The notes beneath the pieces were generated by a model. The model ran no database searches, was not told the DNA's origin, and saw only the letters and a list, made by a program, of their open reading frames with translations. Shown piece by piece: positions 17,528 through 45,612 of a DNA stretch of 64,000 nt (position 1 is the first letter of the stretch; every line of letters begins with the position of its first letter). Source of the stretch: Deferrisoma camini S3R1 (GTDB lineage: Bacteria > Desulfobacterota > Deferrisomatia > Deferrisomatales > Deferrisomataceae). Made by a program: the position numbers and the translations under genes. The stretch is taken from NCBI RefSeq assembly GCF_000526155.1, contig NZ_JAFN01000001.1:2133014-2197013 (forward strand), read 5' to 3'.

Positions 17528-17573
17528 CTAGTCTCTAGTCTCTAGTTTCTAGTCTCTAGTCTCTAGTCTCTAG
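17528..17573. repeat. CTAGTCT heptanucleotide array
   Basis: Six to seven tandem units CTAGTCT/CTAGTTT. The array supplies the last codons and the stop of the PHP gene at 17556-17558. It is followed by CTAGCCCGCA, the first ten bases of element B's terminal repeat at 39300. Confidence 0.85.
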
Positions 17574-37177: not shown

Positions 37178-39181
37178 CTAACGGCCGAACAGCCGCTTCA
37201 GCCCCTGTTCGATCGCCTTCCTCCCCTCCGGGTCCAGGGGAAGCTTGTCCAACACCTTCTCCTCCACGGCCTTCCGGGCCTTCTTTTCCAGCACCTTGGC
37301 CCCCATCCGGGCCAGGGCCTCGGTGTCCAGGCCGTAGGACGGATCCTCCAGGGTGCCGGACAGCCGCAGGGGCACCCTGGACCACCCCTGCTCGTCCGTG
37401 AGGGCGTCGAGCACCTCGGCCCGTCGCAGCAGGCGGCCCGCGATCCGGCGGGGCACGGCCACCGCCACCCGCAGGTCCAACCTCTGGTCCACCAGCCCCA
37501 GGGTGCCGGTGGCCGTGGCCTGGGCGTCCGGGCCCCGAAGGACCAGGCTGCGCACGGTGCCCACCCCGCCCTGGGCCCCCGCGTCGAGCTTGAGGGTGTA
37601 GAAGTTCAGGGTCCGGAGCTCCTTGACCCGGAACAGGTCCGCGAACCGATCCACCAGGGGGTGGTTCAGGATCCTGCCGTCCCTGGCCTCGGCCCGGACG
37701 TCCGCCGTTAGGGCCTCCGGATCGCCGCCCCGGCCCGACACCCGGGCCGAGAGGGACAGGGTGCCGGTGACGGTGTTGGCCAGGCCGGGGCTGACGGCCG
37801 GCAACAGCTTGCCGAGCCGGGTGCCGTCCAGGCTCACCTCGGCCTCGAACGCCGGGCCGGACGCGGCCAGGTCCACGCCCACGGCCGCCGCAAGCTCGCC
37901 TTCGTACACGCCGGCCCGCAGCGGATCGATCCGGAGCTTTCCGCCCCTCAGCTCCACGTGGGCCTGGAACGGCTCCACCGCCAGCCCCCCGGCCTCCAGG
38001 CGTCCGATCTCCACGTCGCCCTTGGCCTCCACCGGCACCTCGGGCGGCGGCCCCTCGTTCGCTCCGGCGGCCGGGGCCCCGGCCGCAGTTCCCGCCGCCT
38101 CCTCGCTCGGGGGAAGGAGAGCCAGGAACGGGTCGGCCCCCAGCTCGGGCGAGGTCAGCCGAAACTCCACCCGGAACGGCTCGGCCCCGTACCGGGCCCG
38201 GCCCGTGAGGAAGAGGCGCTGGCCGGCCGCTTCGGCATCGAGCTTCGAGAGGTCCACCTCGGCCTTCGCAGGGTCCAGGGTCATCAAAAGGTCCACGGAC
38301 AGGTCGGTTGGCTCGCCCGTCCGGCCCCCTCGGGCGAGCACCAGCCCCTTCACCCCTGCGGTGCCTTCCACCGCAAGGGCCGCACCGACCGTGCCCTTCA
38401 CCCCAAGGTCCATCGAGAACACGCCGGCCGCGAACCGCACGCCCTCGCCTCCCATCAGGGGGGCCAGGGCCGGCAGGTCGAACCCGTCCACCCGGAGCCT
38501 CGCGTCCACCTGCCGGGTGGTCGGGTGGAGGGTGCCCTCCACGGAGAACCGTCCCTGCGTCGTCAGCGGCAGCTTGGCAGAAAGTGTGAACGGCACCGGC
38601 CGGTCCAGGGAGAACCCGCTCACCCGGCTCTCGACCTCGTCGAGCACGTAGGTGCGCGGCGGGTCGGCCGACTGGTCCTCGAACGCGATCCGGCCGCCCT
38701 CGGCGGAGAACAGCGCCACCGCCACGGCCACGGGCGTCGCCTCGGCCGGTCTCGGGGGCTGGGCCGGCGTTTCGGCCGGGGCCTTCCCCTCGGCCGGCTC
38801 CAGCAGGTCGTCGATGTCCAGGGTGCCGTCGGGCCGGCGCACCACGCGGATCCGCGGCCGCACGAGCCGTACCTCCTCCACCTCGATCTCCTTCCGAAGG
38901 AGGGACCACAGGTTCCAACGCACCCGGATGCGGTCGGCCGCCACCAGGGGCTCGGCCGCACCCTCGGCGCGCACGTCCAGTCCCTCCAGCTCGATGCCGG
39001 TGAGCCCGCCCCCGGCGTCCGCGATGCTCACCCGGCGGTGGAGGCGGGCCTCCAGGGGAGGGACCACCCATCCGAGGATCCGATCCTTGGTCAGGTAGAG
39101 CTTGAGGGCCACCGTGGCGGCGCCGCCCAGGACGACGAGGACGGCTCCGGTCCAGAGGAGCACCTTTCCCATCTTGCGCAT
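37178..39181 (-). CDS. AsmA family protein
   Basis: The 667-residue protein has an N-terminal membrane anchor (VLLWTGAVLVVLGGAATVALKLYL) followed by VVPPLEARLHRRVSIADAGGGLTGIELEGLDVRAEG, the AsmA start pattern. Long beta-rich sequence follows with a proline/glutamate linker near residue 150. The C-terminal AsmA-like part includes LSLSARVSGRGGDPEALTADVRAEARDGRI, HPLVDRFADLF and LRLSGTLEDPSYGLD. AsmA-type proteins are thought to move phospholipid across the periplasm or help outer-membrane assembly. The ATG at 39179-39181 has CGGGAG upstream. It is a single gene between trmFO and tRNA-Arg. Confidence 0.82.
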   Translation of the reverse strand: MRKMGKVLLWTGAVLVVLGGAATVALKLYLTKDRILGWVVPPLEARLHRRVSIADAGGGLTGIELEGLDVRAEGAAEPLVAADRIRVRWNLWSLLRKEIEVEEVRLVRPRIRVVRRPDGTLDIDDLLEPAEGKAPAETPAQPPRPAEATPVAVAVALFSAEGGRIAFEDQSADPPRTYVLDEVESRVSGFSLDRPVPFTLSAKLPLTTQGRFSVEGTLHPTTRQVDARLRVDGFDLPALAPLMGGEGVRFAAGVFSMDLGVKGTVGAALAVEGTAGVKGLVLARGGRTGEPTDLSVDLLMTLDPAKAEVDLSKLDAEAAGQRLFLTGRARYGAEPFRVEFRLTSPELGADPFLALLPPSEEAAGTAAGAPAAGANEGPPPEVPVEAKGDVEIGRLEAGGLAVEPFQAHVELRGGKLRIDPLRAGVYEGELAAAVGVDLAASGPAFEAEVSLDGTRLGKLLPAVSPGLANTVTGTLSLSARVSGRGGDPEALTADVRAEARDGRILNHPLVDRFADLFRVKELRTLNFYTLKLDAGAQGGVGTVRSLVLRGPDAQATATGTLGLVDQRLDLRVAVAVPRRIAGRLLRRAEVLDALTDEQGWSRVPLRLSGTLEDPSYGLDTEALARMGAKVLEKKARKAVEEKVLDKLPLDPEGRKAIEQGLKRLFGR

Positions 39182-39197
39182 GATCGGACTCCCGTAT

Positions 39198-39232
39198 GAC
39201 TTCGGTCGACGGTCGTTGGTCGTTGGTCGGCC
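39198..39232. repeat. Heptad array upstream of the AsmA gene
   Basis: GACTTC, GGTCGAC, GGTCGTT, GGTCGTT and GGTCGGC. Read with the gene it ends GACCGAAGTC 16 bases before the start codon. It is followed by GGCTGGAA-type eight-base repeats to about 39286. Confidence 0.7.
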
Positions 39233-39299
39233 TTCGGCCGGCTGGAAGGCTGGGAAGCCAGGAAGCTGGGAGGCTAGAAGGCTAAAAGTCCTATCCCCC

Positions 39300-39483
39300 C
39301 TAGCCCGCATTATTCATGAAGCCTTCTGCTGCAACCGCCGATTGCACGCCATCTCGGGGCGTGCTCGCGCCTCGGGGCTCGACGTACCGTCCAGTACGCC
39401 TGCACCCCTCGGCGCTGCGCTTGCCCCGATCTGACGCACACTCGACGGTTTCGCGACGAACGCTCATGAATAATGCGGGCTAG
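39300..39483. mobile_element. Non-coding element B with perfect 20-bp terminal inverted repeats
   Basis: CTAGCCCGCATTATTCATGA (39300-39319) is the exact reverse complement of 39464-39483. The interior is an imperfect palindrome to its centre near 39391. CTAG at both ends may be a 4-bp target duplication, and TTTCT follows on the right as in the CTAGTTT heptads. It has no transposase, so it is MITE-like. Family unknown to me. Confidence 0.75.
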
Positions 39484-39525
39484 TTTCTCGTGTACCGTTT
39501 CGCAACAACATATGTGGATTACGGC

Positions 39526-39683
39526 GGTGGGGCTGGGGGCTCCAACGGAGCGCGACGGCCGAGCAGTCCGGGCCGCCCGGCGCCAGGGGAGCGGCCGCGG
39601 CGCGTGCTCTCACGCGCCGCAGCGGACCGCGCCGAGGCGGCCCCTGCGAGGCCGTTCAGCGAAGGAGGGGCCCCAGCCCCACC
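39526..39683. repeat. 158-bp palindromic element D upstream of tRNA-Arg
   Basis: GGTGGGGCTGGGG (39526-39538) pairs with CCCCAGCCCCACC (39671-39683). Near the centre GCGGCGCGTG, loop CTCT, CACGCGCCGC (39597-39620) is perfect. Between them the arms pair imperfectly. It begins 42 bases after element B. Outside B and D I see no gene in 39182-39786. Confidence 0.6.
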
Positions 39684-39786
39684 CCCTGGGAGAACCACGA
39701 GAGTTGGGAAACGCTACACTAGTCTCTGCCCCCCAAAGCTCTTGCAATCGGGCCCCAGGTGTGATTGACTATGCGCTTCCTTCGGT

Positions 39787-39863
39787 GGGCGAGTAGCTCA
39801 GCTGGATAGAGCGCAGGTCTCCGGAACCTGAGGCCGTGGGTTCGAATCCCGCCTCGCCCACCA
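39787..39863 (+). tRNA. tRNA-Arg (anticodon CCG)
   Basis: A 77-base cloverleaf: acceptor GGGCGAG/CTCGCCC, anticodon stem CAGGT/ACCTG with loop CTCCGGA, so anticodon CCG reading CGG. T arm GTGGG-TTCGAAT-CCCGC; CCA is encoded. CGG is a common arginine codon in this G+C-rich genome. It stands alone and is followed by a rho-independent terminator. Confidence 0.96.
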
Positions 39864-39873
39864 CGCATCGCCG

Positions 39874-39903
39874 CGCCGGCCCCTCTGGGGCCGGCGTTTT
39901 TTT
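39874..39903 (+). terminator. Rho-independent terminator of tRNA-Arg
   Basis: CGCCGGCCCC, loop TCT, GGGGCCGGCG, then seven T. This is a 10-bp perfect stem. Confidence 0.92.
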
Positions 39904-39913
39904 CGTGCCCCCC

Positions 39914-40801
39914 TCACCCACCCTTGCCGATCCGGCCCCGGACGGCGGCGATCACCCGGTTGCGGTCGAACACGGGCGCGAGCAGCCGATCGCCCCGGGT
40001 GTCGCCCACGATCCGGTGGACCACCGTGGTCGGCGGCAGGCTCCGTAGGAAGCGGGCGGCCCGGTCCACGTACTCCGCCTCGGCCAGCACCCGAACCTCG
40101 CCACGGCGCCACAGCGCCTCCAGCGCCGTGCCCCGCACCACCGCGAGCTGGTGGAGCTTGACCCCGTCCACGCCCAGCCCGGCCAGGAACCCTGCGGTGC
40201 GCTCCTCGTCCTCCGGCCCCTCGCCGGGAAGCCCCAGGATCACGTGGGCGCACACCTTGAGCCCCCGGGCTCGGGCCCGGGCCGCGGCGTCGGCAAAGTC
40301 GGCCGCGGTGTGGCCCCGGCGAAGCAGCGCCAGGGTCGGATCGTGGGCCGACTGCAGCCCCAGCTCCAGCCACACCTCCCACCGGTCTGCATATCCGGCC
40401 AGGAGGTCCAGCACCGGGTCGGGCACGCAGTCGGGCCGGGTGCCCACGCAGAGTGCCACCACCTCGGAGAAGGGCAAGCAGGCGTCCCAGACCCGGCGGA
40501 GTACCTCGATGGGGGCATGGGTGTTGGTGTGGGGCTGGAAGTAGGCGGCCACCCGGGTCACGCCCCGGTCCCGCAGGCGCCCGATGCCCTCGGCCAGTTG
40601 GCGGGCCACCGGCCGGGGGTCGCCCGCGCTCGGTGAGAACGAGGCGGGGTCGCAGAACAGGCACCCTCCCCTTCCCACGGTGCCGTCCCGGTTCGGGCAG
40701 GAAAGCCCGGCGTCCAGGCTCACCCTCCGCACCGGCCCGCCGAACCGGGCTCGCCAATGGCGGCCGATGCCGGGATAGGGCTCAGACGGTCTTGCGCGCA
40801 A
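39914..40801 (-). CDS. Radical SAM protein, YhcC/TIGR01212 type
   Basis: The 295-residue protein has CPNRDGTVGRGGCLFC at about residues 35-50, the CxxxDGxxGxGGCxFC iron-sulfur site that distinguishes the YhcC family. YFQPHTNTHAP, CVGTRPDCVPD, ELGLQSAHD and CAHVILGLPGE follow. The cluster binds SAM to start radical chemistry; the physiological reaction is not established to my knowledge. The TTG at 40799-40801 is the likely start (AGAGG eight bases upstream). It follows the dynamin-like gene by 45 bases and faces the tRNA-Arg terminator. Confidence 0.87.
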   Translation of the reverse strand: MRARPSEPYPGIGRHWRARFGGPVRRVSLDAGLSCPNRDGTVGRGGCLFCDPASFSPSAGDPRPVARQLAEGIGRLRDRGVTRVAAYFQPHTNTHAPIEVLRRVWDACLPFSEVVALCVGTRPDCVPDPVLDLLAGYADRWEVWLELGLQSAHDPTLALLRRGHTAADFADAAARARARGLKVCAHVILGLPGEGPEDEERTAGFLAGLGVDGVKLHQLAVVRGTALEALWRRGEVRVLAEAEYVDRAARFLRSLPPTTVVHRIVGDTRGDRLLAPVFDRNRVIAAVRGRIGKGG

Positions 40802-43719: not shown

Positions 43720-45612
43720 ATGGGCAGGTACGAAGAACTCTACCGAAGGAGCCTCGAAGACCCTGCCGGGTTCTGGGCGGAGGCGGCCGAGCAGATCTCG
43801 TGGACCAAGAAGTGGGACCGCGTGCTCGACGACTCCAACCCGCCCTTCTACCGGTGGTTCGTGGGCGGGGAGCTCAACACCTGTTACAACGCCGTGGACC
43901 GGCACGTGGAGGCCGGCCGGGGCGACCAGGTGGCCATCATCTACGACAGCCCGGTGACGGACCAGATCCAGAAGATCACCTACCGGGAGCTCCAGGACCG
44001 GGTGGCCCGGTTCGCCGGGGTGCTGCGGGGGCTCGGCGTGGAAAAGGGCGACACCGTCATCATCTACATGCCCATGGTGCCCCAGGCGGCCGTGGCCATG
44101 CTGGCCTGCGCCCGGCTCGGGGCGATCCACTCGGTGGTGTTCGGCGGGTTCGCCCCCAACGAGCTGGCCCTGCGCATCGACGACGCCAAGCCCAAGGTGA
44201 TCGTGTCGGCCTCGTGCGGCATCGAGGTCACCCGGGTCATCGAGTACAAGCCCATGCTCGACAAGGCGATCGAGCTGGCCCAGCACAAGCCGGACAAGTG
44301 CGTGATCCTGGCACGGCCCCAGGCCAAGGCCGAGCTCACCCCGGGCCGCGACCACGACTGGGACGAGCTGATGGCCCAGGCCGAGCCAGCCGAGTGCGTG
44401 CCCGTGGCCGCCACCGACCCCTTGTACATCCTGTACACCTCGGGGACCACCGGCATGCCCAAGGGCATCGTGCGCGACAACGGCGGCCACGCCGTGGCCC
44501 TGCGGTGGAGCATGGAGTACATCTACGACACCAAGCCGGGCGAGGTGTACTGGGCCGCCTCGGACGTGGGCTGGGTGGTGGGCCACTCGTACATCGTGTA
44601 CGGGCCCCTGTTCACGGGCTGCACCACCATCCTGTACGAGGGCAAGCCCGTGGGCACCCCGGACCCGGGCGCCTTCTGGCGGGTCATCAGCCAGCACGGG
44701 GTCAAGGTGCTGTTCACGGCGCCCACGGCCTTCCGGGCCATCAAGAAGGAGGACCCCAACGGCGAGTACTTCAAGAAGTACGACCTGTCCAACTTCAAGT
44801 ACCTGTTCCTGGCCGGTGAGCGGCTCGATCCTGACACCTACCACTGGGCGTCGGACCTGCTGCAGCGCCCCGTGATCGACCACTGGTGGCAGACCGAGAC
44901 CGGCTGGCCCATCGCGGCGAACTGCGCCGGGATCGAGCTGATGCCGATCAAGCCCGGCTCGCCCACCAAGGCCGTGCCCGGCTACGACGTGCAGATCGTG
45001 GACGACGCGGGCAAGGAGCTCGGGCCCAACCAGGAGGGCATCGTGGTGGTCAAGCTGCCCCTGCCCCCGGGCACGCTGCCGACCCTCTGGCAGAACGACG
45101 AGCGGTTCCGCCAGTCCTACACCGACCCCTTCCCCGGGTACTACTTCACGGGTGACGGCGGCTACAAGGACGAGGACGGATACCTCTACATCATGGGCCG
45201 GGTGGACGACGTGATCAACGTGGCCGGCCACCGGCTGTCCACCGGGGCCATGGAGGAGGTGATCGCCACCCACCCGGCCGTGGCCGAGTGCGCCGTGATC
45301 GGGGTGGCCGACAACCTGAAGGGCCAGGTGCCCGTGGGGTTCGTGGTGCTGAAGGCCGGCGCCGAGGTGGACCCGGACCGGCTCAAGGCGGACCTGGTGC
45401 AGATGATCCGCCAGCAGATCGGACCGATCGCCTGCTACAAGGAGACCATGATCGTCAAGCGGCTGCCCAAGACCCGGTCGGGCAAGATCCTGCGGGGCAC
45501 CATGCGCAAGATCGCCGACGGCGAGAAGTACCGGGTGCCGTCCACCATCGACGATCCGGCCATCCTGGGCGAGATCGAGGAGGCCCTGAAGACCGTGGGC
45601 TACGCCAAGTAA
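43720..45612 (+). CDS. prpE: Propionate--CoA ligase / acyl-CoA synthetase, PrpE type
   Basis: This AMP-forming enzyme activates propionate (or a similar short acid) to its CoA ester. The 630-residue protein has the P-loop LYILYTSGTTGMPKGIVRDNGG; the IVRDNGGHAVAL continuation separates PrpE/ACSS3 enzymes from acetyl-CoA synthetases. Other motifs are WWQTETGWPI, YYFTGDGGYKDEDGYLYIMGRVDDVINVAGHRLS and the catalytic lysine in TRSGKILRGTMRKIA. AAAGGAGG precedes the ATG at 43720. The promoter motif is shared with mdh. A terminator lies 25 bases after the stop. Substrate preference is inferred. Confidence 0.92.
   Translation: MGRYEELYRRSLEDPAGFWAEAAEQISWTKKWDRVLDDSNPPFYRWFVGGELNTCYNAVDRHVEAGRGDQVAIIYDSPVTDQIQKITYRELQDRVARFAGVLRGLGVEKGDTVIIYMPMVPQAAVAMLACARLGAIHSVVFGGFAPNELALRIDDAKPKVIVSASCGIEVTRVIEYKPMLDKAIELAQHKPDKCVILARPQAKAELTPGRDHDWDELMAQAEPAECVPVAATDPLYILYTSGTTGMPKGIVRDNGGHAVALRWSMEYIYDTKPGEVYWAASDVGWVVGHSYIVYGPLFTGCTTILYEGKPVGTPDPGAFWRVISQHGVKVLFTAPTAFRAIKKEDPNGEYFKKYDLSNFKYLFLAGERLDPDTYHWASDLLQRPVIDHWWQTETGWPIAANCAGIELMPIKPGSPTKAVPGYDVQIVDDAGKELGPNQEGIVVVKLPLPPGTLPTLWQNDERFRQSYTDPFPGYYFTGDGGYKDEDGYLYIMGRVDDVINVAGHRLSTGAMEEVIATHPAVAECAVIGVADNLKGQVPVGFVVLKAGAEVDPDRLKADLVQMIRQQIGPIACYKETMIVKRLPKTRSGKILRGTMRKIADGEKYRVPSTIDDPAILGEIEEALKTVGYAK

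Follow-up and report, generated by a model that had tools for sequence, protein, structure and literature searches.

A MITE with IS1380-type ends and a covarying hairpin core in Deferrisoma camini

Bacterial MITEs such as the Correia elements and the TIMEs are shorter than 300 bp, carry terminal inverted repeats (TIRs), occur in many copies, form a stable hairpin and are presumed to be moved in trans (PMC4133298). The IS1380 family of insertion sequences, which has been used as the outgroup of the eukaryotic piggyBac superfamily (PMC10813416), includes two members caught on trap plasmids, IS1247 (PMC3281130) and ISPsp9 (PMC4133298), both of which are listed with 5-bp target duplications. Here we describe an element from a stretch of 64,000 nucleotides of the Deferrisoma camini S3R1 genome (hereafter the window) that shares all of the above traits of bacterial MITEs, including a presumed movement in trans, and that has ends of the IS1380 type; unlike the duplications of IS1247 and ISPsp9, those found here are of 4 bp, with the consensus YTAR.

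Boundaries, copies and target of the element

The arms at 39300-39319 and 39464-39483 of the window, 20 nt each, are 100% complementary, and the 184 bases that they delimit form a single long imperfect hairpin (DNA MFE -55.1 kcal/mol, z -7.07, with none of 200 shuffles equally good); on both points the original prediction, made from the letters alone, holds. It had also raised an alternative reading of the ends in which the flanking CTAGs are a 4-bp target duplication, and this is the correct one: one CTAG stands at the corresponding empty site, and each 20-bp end consists of a 16-bp TIR and the 4-bp CTAG duplicated from the target. The MITE proper is thereby confirmed as an element of 176 bp with a perfect 16-bp TIR, CCCGCATTATTCATGA (Table 1). 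It is short, its TIRs agree at 16 of 16 positions, it lacks a transposase gene, and an ORF check of the element found no convincing gene or ORF inside the 176 bp. The ends had further been described as A+T-rich against their surroundings; the contrast is real for the TIRs (44% GC), but the interior (69%) is close to the window as a whole (70%).

Table 1 Features of the element, in window coordinates
Feature	Position	Strand	Basis
Left target-site duplication, CTAG	39300..39303		Single CTAG at the empty site of sister species G001
Left terminal inverted repeat, CCCGCATTATTCATGA	39304..39319	+	0-2 mismatches to IS1380-family 3' ends
MITE, long imperfect hairpin, 176 bp	39304..39479		Fold, copies, covariation with Nitrospira relatives
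Left subterminal box, TTCTGCTGCAA	39324..39334	+	Conserved in Nitrospira relatives, alignment A1
Hairpin tip, GTACCGTCCAGTAC	39384..39397		GTAC-loop-GTAC tip recurring in relatives
Right subterminal box, TTTCGCGACGAA	39449..39460	+	Conserved in Nitrospira relatives, alignment A1
Right terminal inverted repeat	39464..39479	-	CCCGCATTATTCATGA when the minus strand is read
Right target-site duplication, CTAG	39480..39483		Single CTAG at the empty site of sister species G001

The element is dispersed in many copies. The window genome (4.24 Mb, one contig) holds 16 of them at 85-100% identity over most or all of the element, together with fragments, and the genome of a sister species in the same genus (G001) holds at least 40. 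A search with the 20-mer allowing up to 3 mismatches gave 31 matches in the genome versus 0 for the reversed control, so the repeat lies far beyond chance. The window copy itself is absent from G001, where 43391-44594 of contig C11 correspond to window 38100-39303 and 44591-45514 to window 39480-40400; the two segments overlap by exactly CTAG, and the empty site, which reads ...CCCCCCTAGTTTCTCG..., contains one intact CTAG. Two further sites are also empty in G001, one with a single CTAG (L010) and one with a single TTAA (L014), where some bases just to the right differ between the species; at a fourth site (L012) the MITE is present in both genomes. Other genomic copies and empty sites with a single target, which had been named beforehand as checks, were thus both found. 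Within the window genome the full-length copies are on average 97.7% identical, and some copies match at 100% between the two species; the host DNA flanking the window copy, by contrast, is 92-94% identical to G001. The insertion is therefore young, in line with its earlier description as recent, and the element is a real, recent MITE of known type, ordinary in kind.

Most copies are flanked by CTAG, with one copy bearing TTAA on both sides and another flanked by two directly repeated TTAGs; a further directly duplicated, non-palindromic target among the copies is CTAA/CTAA. In a set of 123 elements, comprising those of the window genome and of two same-genus genomes plus 64 from other genomes, the flanking tetramers were identical in 69, and all 69 conform to YTAR (54 CTAG, 11 CTAA/TTAG and 4 TTAA). 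Non-palindromic left flanks in this set were repeated directly in 11 cases and inverted in 3. As non-palindromic tetramers are duplicated directly, the outer four bases belong to a YTAR target that lies outside the inverted repeat. A general preference for palindromic targets was considered and rejected: relative to the local background, CTAG is preferred and TTAA is not.

The MITE lies slightly more than 100 bp upstream of a minus-strand DUF748/AsmA-like gene and about 300 bp before a tRNA gene (39787-39860), and it explains the perfect 20-bp palindrome close to a tRNA gene in this genome. From its composition the window should contain 174 CTAGs but has 33, a deficit of about five-fold, and 12 of the 33 fall within two arrays of 7-bp units, at 428-459 and 17528-17573; targets for insertion are thus scarce and clustered. 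The right flank of the MITE, CTAGTTTCTCG, which is also present at the empty site in G001, resembles a single CTAGTTT-like heptad unit and leads into a second repeat family at 39491-39718. The idea that the MITE had inserted into a heptad array therefore survives in part, in that one CTAGTTT-like unit is found at the edge of another repeat, but there is no array. This abutting family is about 230 bp long. Its left end is TGTACCGTTTCGC and its right end, in the inward direction, TGTAGCGTTTCCC; it is usually flanked by CTAG, and its copies number at least 40 in the window genome, with many others in G001. The MITE borders directly on such a repeat in 3 of 16 cases. To the left of the MITE, window 39200-39285 is a degenerate tract (GGTCGTTGGTCG..., GGAAGGCTGGGAAGCCAGG...) that recurs many times in G001 and in G002.

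An IS1380-family transposase as the probable mover

One pair among the 31 end matches lies 1.7 kb apart, at 3805519 and 3807208 of the window genome, and between the two is a gene for a 459-aa transposase (P0001), the only IS1380 gene in this genome. P0001 passes the IS1380 family model NF033539 (410 bits, against a cut-off of 180) and matches PF13701 at 1.1e-156. The ends of this resident IS, CCCGGATGATTCATGA and CCCGGATAATTCACGA, are both bordered by CTAG and differ from the MITE end by 2 and 3 mismatches; with 14/16 and 13/16 positions in agreement, the resident IS may be what moves the MITE at present, or else just a cousin of the actual mover. Comparable arrangements were found in other genomes, in a search for transposase genes linked to MITE-type ends that covered IS1380: an IS1380 gene lies inside such ends, at 1 and 4 mismatches and with CTAA on both sides, in L085, and within ends at 0 (the 3' end) and 4 mismatches in a Nitrospira locus (L220). 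An IS1380 gene in G001 (L075) has a 5' end 2 mismatches from that of the MITE, and IS1380 genes also go with such ends in three Jannaschia loci (L113, L142 and L147) and a viral contig, L200 (3' end, 1 mismatch). Compared with the MITE end, the 3' ends of the ISs thus show 2, 1, 0 and 1 mismatches and the 5' ends 3, 4 and 4 where both ends could be read, with 2 in L075. The MITE resembles an IS1380 element in its ends (0-2 mismatches to IS 3' ends) and in its YTAR target, and a transposase-bearing element with MITE-like ends, suggested earlier as something to look for, turned up in the IS1380 family, with a matching type of end and of target.

The resident IS1380 (L058 4203-4662; G000:C1 ~3807202-3807661) occupies a CTAG that borders a CRISPR-like array, which consists of 7 repeats of GGAACCACTGACCTGATTCAGAAGGGATTGCGAC with a spacing of 68-72. 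Since the most distant repeat is degenerate, the IS may lie between the leader and the array.

Since ends of the same type, together with the same targets, border IS1380 genes both here and in other genomes, we consider it very probable, from sequence comparison, that a DDE transposase of the IS1380 family moves the MITE in trans. Such an enzyme would recognise the 16-bp end on both sides of the MITE, mobilise the element and place it at a YTAR target, mostly CTAG, whose 4 bp are thereby duplicated. To judge from its termini, the MITE looks like two IS 3' ends placed face to face around a hairpin core unrelated to the IS. Derivation from an IS by loss of its middle, a common though not obligatory origin of MITEs, was also considered and rejected: in the elements compared there is no subterminal similarity past 16 bp, and with nothing evident shared beyond that point a simple internal deletion of an IS does not account for the MITE. 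No IS with exactly both of the MITE ends was found in the window genome.

The 5-bp duplications of IS1247 and ISPsp9 count against an IS1380 mover, and one may postulate that a transposase of some other YTAR-targeting family is responsible, for example one of the IS5 group, which uses YTAR, and that the likeness to IS1380 ends is coincidental. The resident IS1380 ends are indeed not identical to those of the MITE, and the second repeat family is likewise flanked by CTAG, so that the genome may have, or may once have had, two or more enzymes that target CTAG. Such a coincidence nevertheless seems improbable to us given that several assemblies unrelated to one another have the 16-bp end with its YTAR next to IS1380 genes, in one case with no mismatch. 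The search for linked transposases, which covered the IS1380 family, showed no other family beside this end.

The hairpin core and its relatives in other phyla

A GTDB scan for YTARCCCGCATNATTCATGA returned at least 119 stretches; the listed matches come from Nitrospira, Acidobacteriota, Planctomycetota, Myxococcota, Alphaproteobacteria and other taxa, and many of them form pairs of ends separated by 120-370 bp and set in YTAR. One genome in the collection (G107, locus L151) shares its contig and its transposase match with G001 and hence does not count as an independent genome. In IMG/VR, a scan for MITE end pairs gave none and a single-end scan gave two contigs, and in the literature we found no paper carrying a CCCGCATTATTCATGA-type end. 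The elements from Nitrospira can be aligned to the window copy throughout their length, with strong conservation of the two subterminal boxes and a GTAC-loop-GTAC tip; the GTAC...GTAC tip is also kept in 44 of the 49 full-length copies in two genomes. GTAC-tipped imperfect hairpins similar to the core of the MITE were also seen without IS1380-type ends, at L062 and L068 (G029) and at L063, L071 and L074 (G039), which suggests that such a core may be carried between ends of more than one type.

Stem covariation in an alignment of 24 sequences (A1) was 0.236, compared with 0.110 (sd 0.008) after shuffling and at most 0.063 when slid. In 8 divergent sequences (A2), compensatory double changes occur in 27 of 65 stem pairs, which exceeds every control (10.4, sd 2.1, when shuffled; 1-7 when slid); the controls for both alignments overstate certainty, as the sequences share ancestry and themselves supplied the structure, but the margin is still wide. 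These results show that the pairing of the hairpin core has been kept through compensatory changes between distant relatives.

How the pairing came to be kept admits more than one answer. One that is compatible with a MITE and concerns the hairpin only, and which we rate as a substantial possibility not quite reaching an even chance, is that the covariation is a mutational by-product, in which template switching, a known mutational process of quasi-palindromes, would copy one arm to the other without selection. No function is required for this; the boxes TTCTGCTGCAA and TTCGTCGCGAAA (both read inward), however, stay unlike across phyla, so the arms are not freely homogenised, which argues against unrestrained correction. 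Selection is the other candidate. It is possible, and we put it forward tentatively, that the elements form a superfamily spanning phyla (the window lineage and Nitrospira at least) in which the core, the GTAC tip and the unlike boxes are selected and the folded form, be it single-stranded DNA, a cruciform or RNA, aids movement or survival. The hairpin core might help transposition as folded single-stranded DNA or as a cruciform, or it might act as an RNA stem-loop in transcripts; folded DNA ends aiding transposition are slightly more likely than an RNA role, and the function is inferred at best.

The maintenance of the hairpin by compensatory changes would also suit a conserved regulatory or RNA hairpin gene that is not mobile and has perfect ends by chance, and the reverse strand gives the better RNA fold in 23 of 24 relatives, by a mean of 13 kcal/mol, a difference that persists when G-U pairs are forbidden. 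We nonetheless regard such a gene as highly improbable in view of the direct target duplications, the scattered copies and the empty sites, the last of which already contradict it. An Rfam search of 39200-39900 yielded the neighbouring tRNA as the sole credible match and no family matching the hairpin, and promoter- or terminator-like sites were absent from 39100-39900. There is no significant excess of G-T over A-C pairs when they are counted without strand bias: a strand-neutral alignment gives 2 G-T to 8 A-C pairs for the window copy (p 0.11) and 235 to 280 for all sequences together. As these counts carry no clear signal either way, RNA-level selection on one strand was set aside as a possibility.

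Comparison with known systems

The MITE with IS1380-type ends belongs to a widespread group, unnamed in the papers that we searched, that these comparisons now tie to probable IS1380 transposases and to a YTAR target. Maintenance of the hairpin, which is usually just assumed from the folding of single sequences, is shown here by alignment, and if the structure is needed then MITEs of this kind would be more than two ends plus filler. The unusual trait is a hairpin kept across distant bacteria, and the maintained hairpin and the spread over phyla are the points that deserve specialist attention.

The IS1380-family ISs seen in this analysis (NF033539) have 16-bp ends starting with CCCG and YTAR flanks, as does the MITE, and encode a DDE transposase (PF13701/NF033539); the MITE differs from them in having no transposase, two ends of the IS 3' type and an unrelated interior. 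The TIMEs have Tn3-type ends of 38 bp and duplications of 5-6 bp, in contrast to the 16-bp IS1380-type ends and 4-bp YTAR duplication of the window MITE. PiggyBac elements, likened here by duplication and ends alone, have a 4-bp duplication of the TTAA type and ends that often start with CCC, and some copies of the MITE lie in TTAA, although its main target is CTAG. The window MITE also resembles the same-ended MITEs of Nitrospira and other phyla (L129, L099, L120 and others), for which our literature search found no naming paper: all share the TIR and YTAR flanks with the window MITE, and those of Nitrospira, which are mostly 187-209 bp long with an extra segment in one arm, as against 176 bp in the window, also share its subterminal boxes and GTAC-tipped hairpin.
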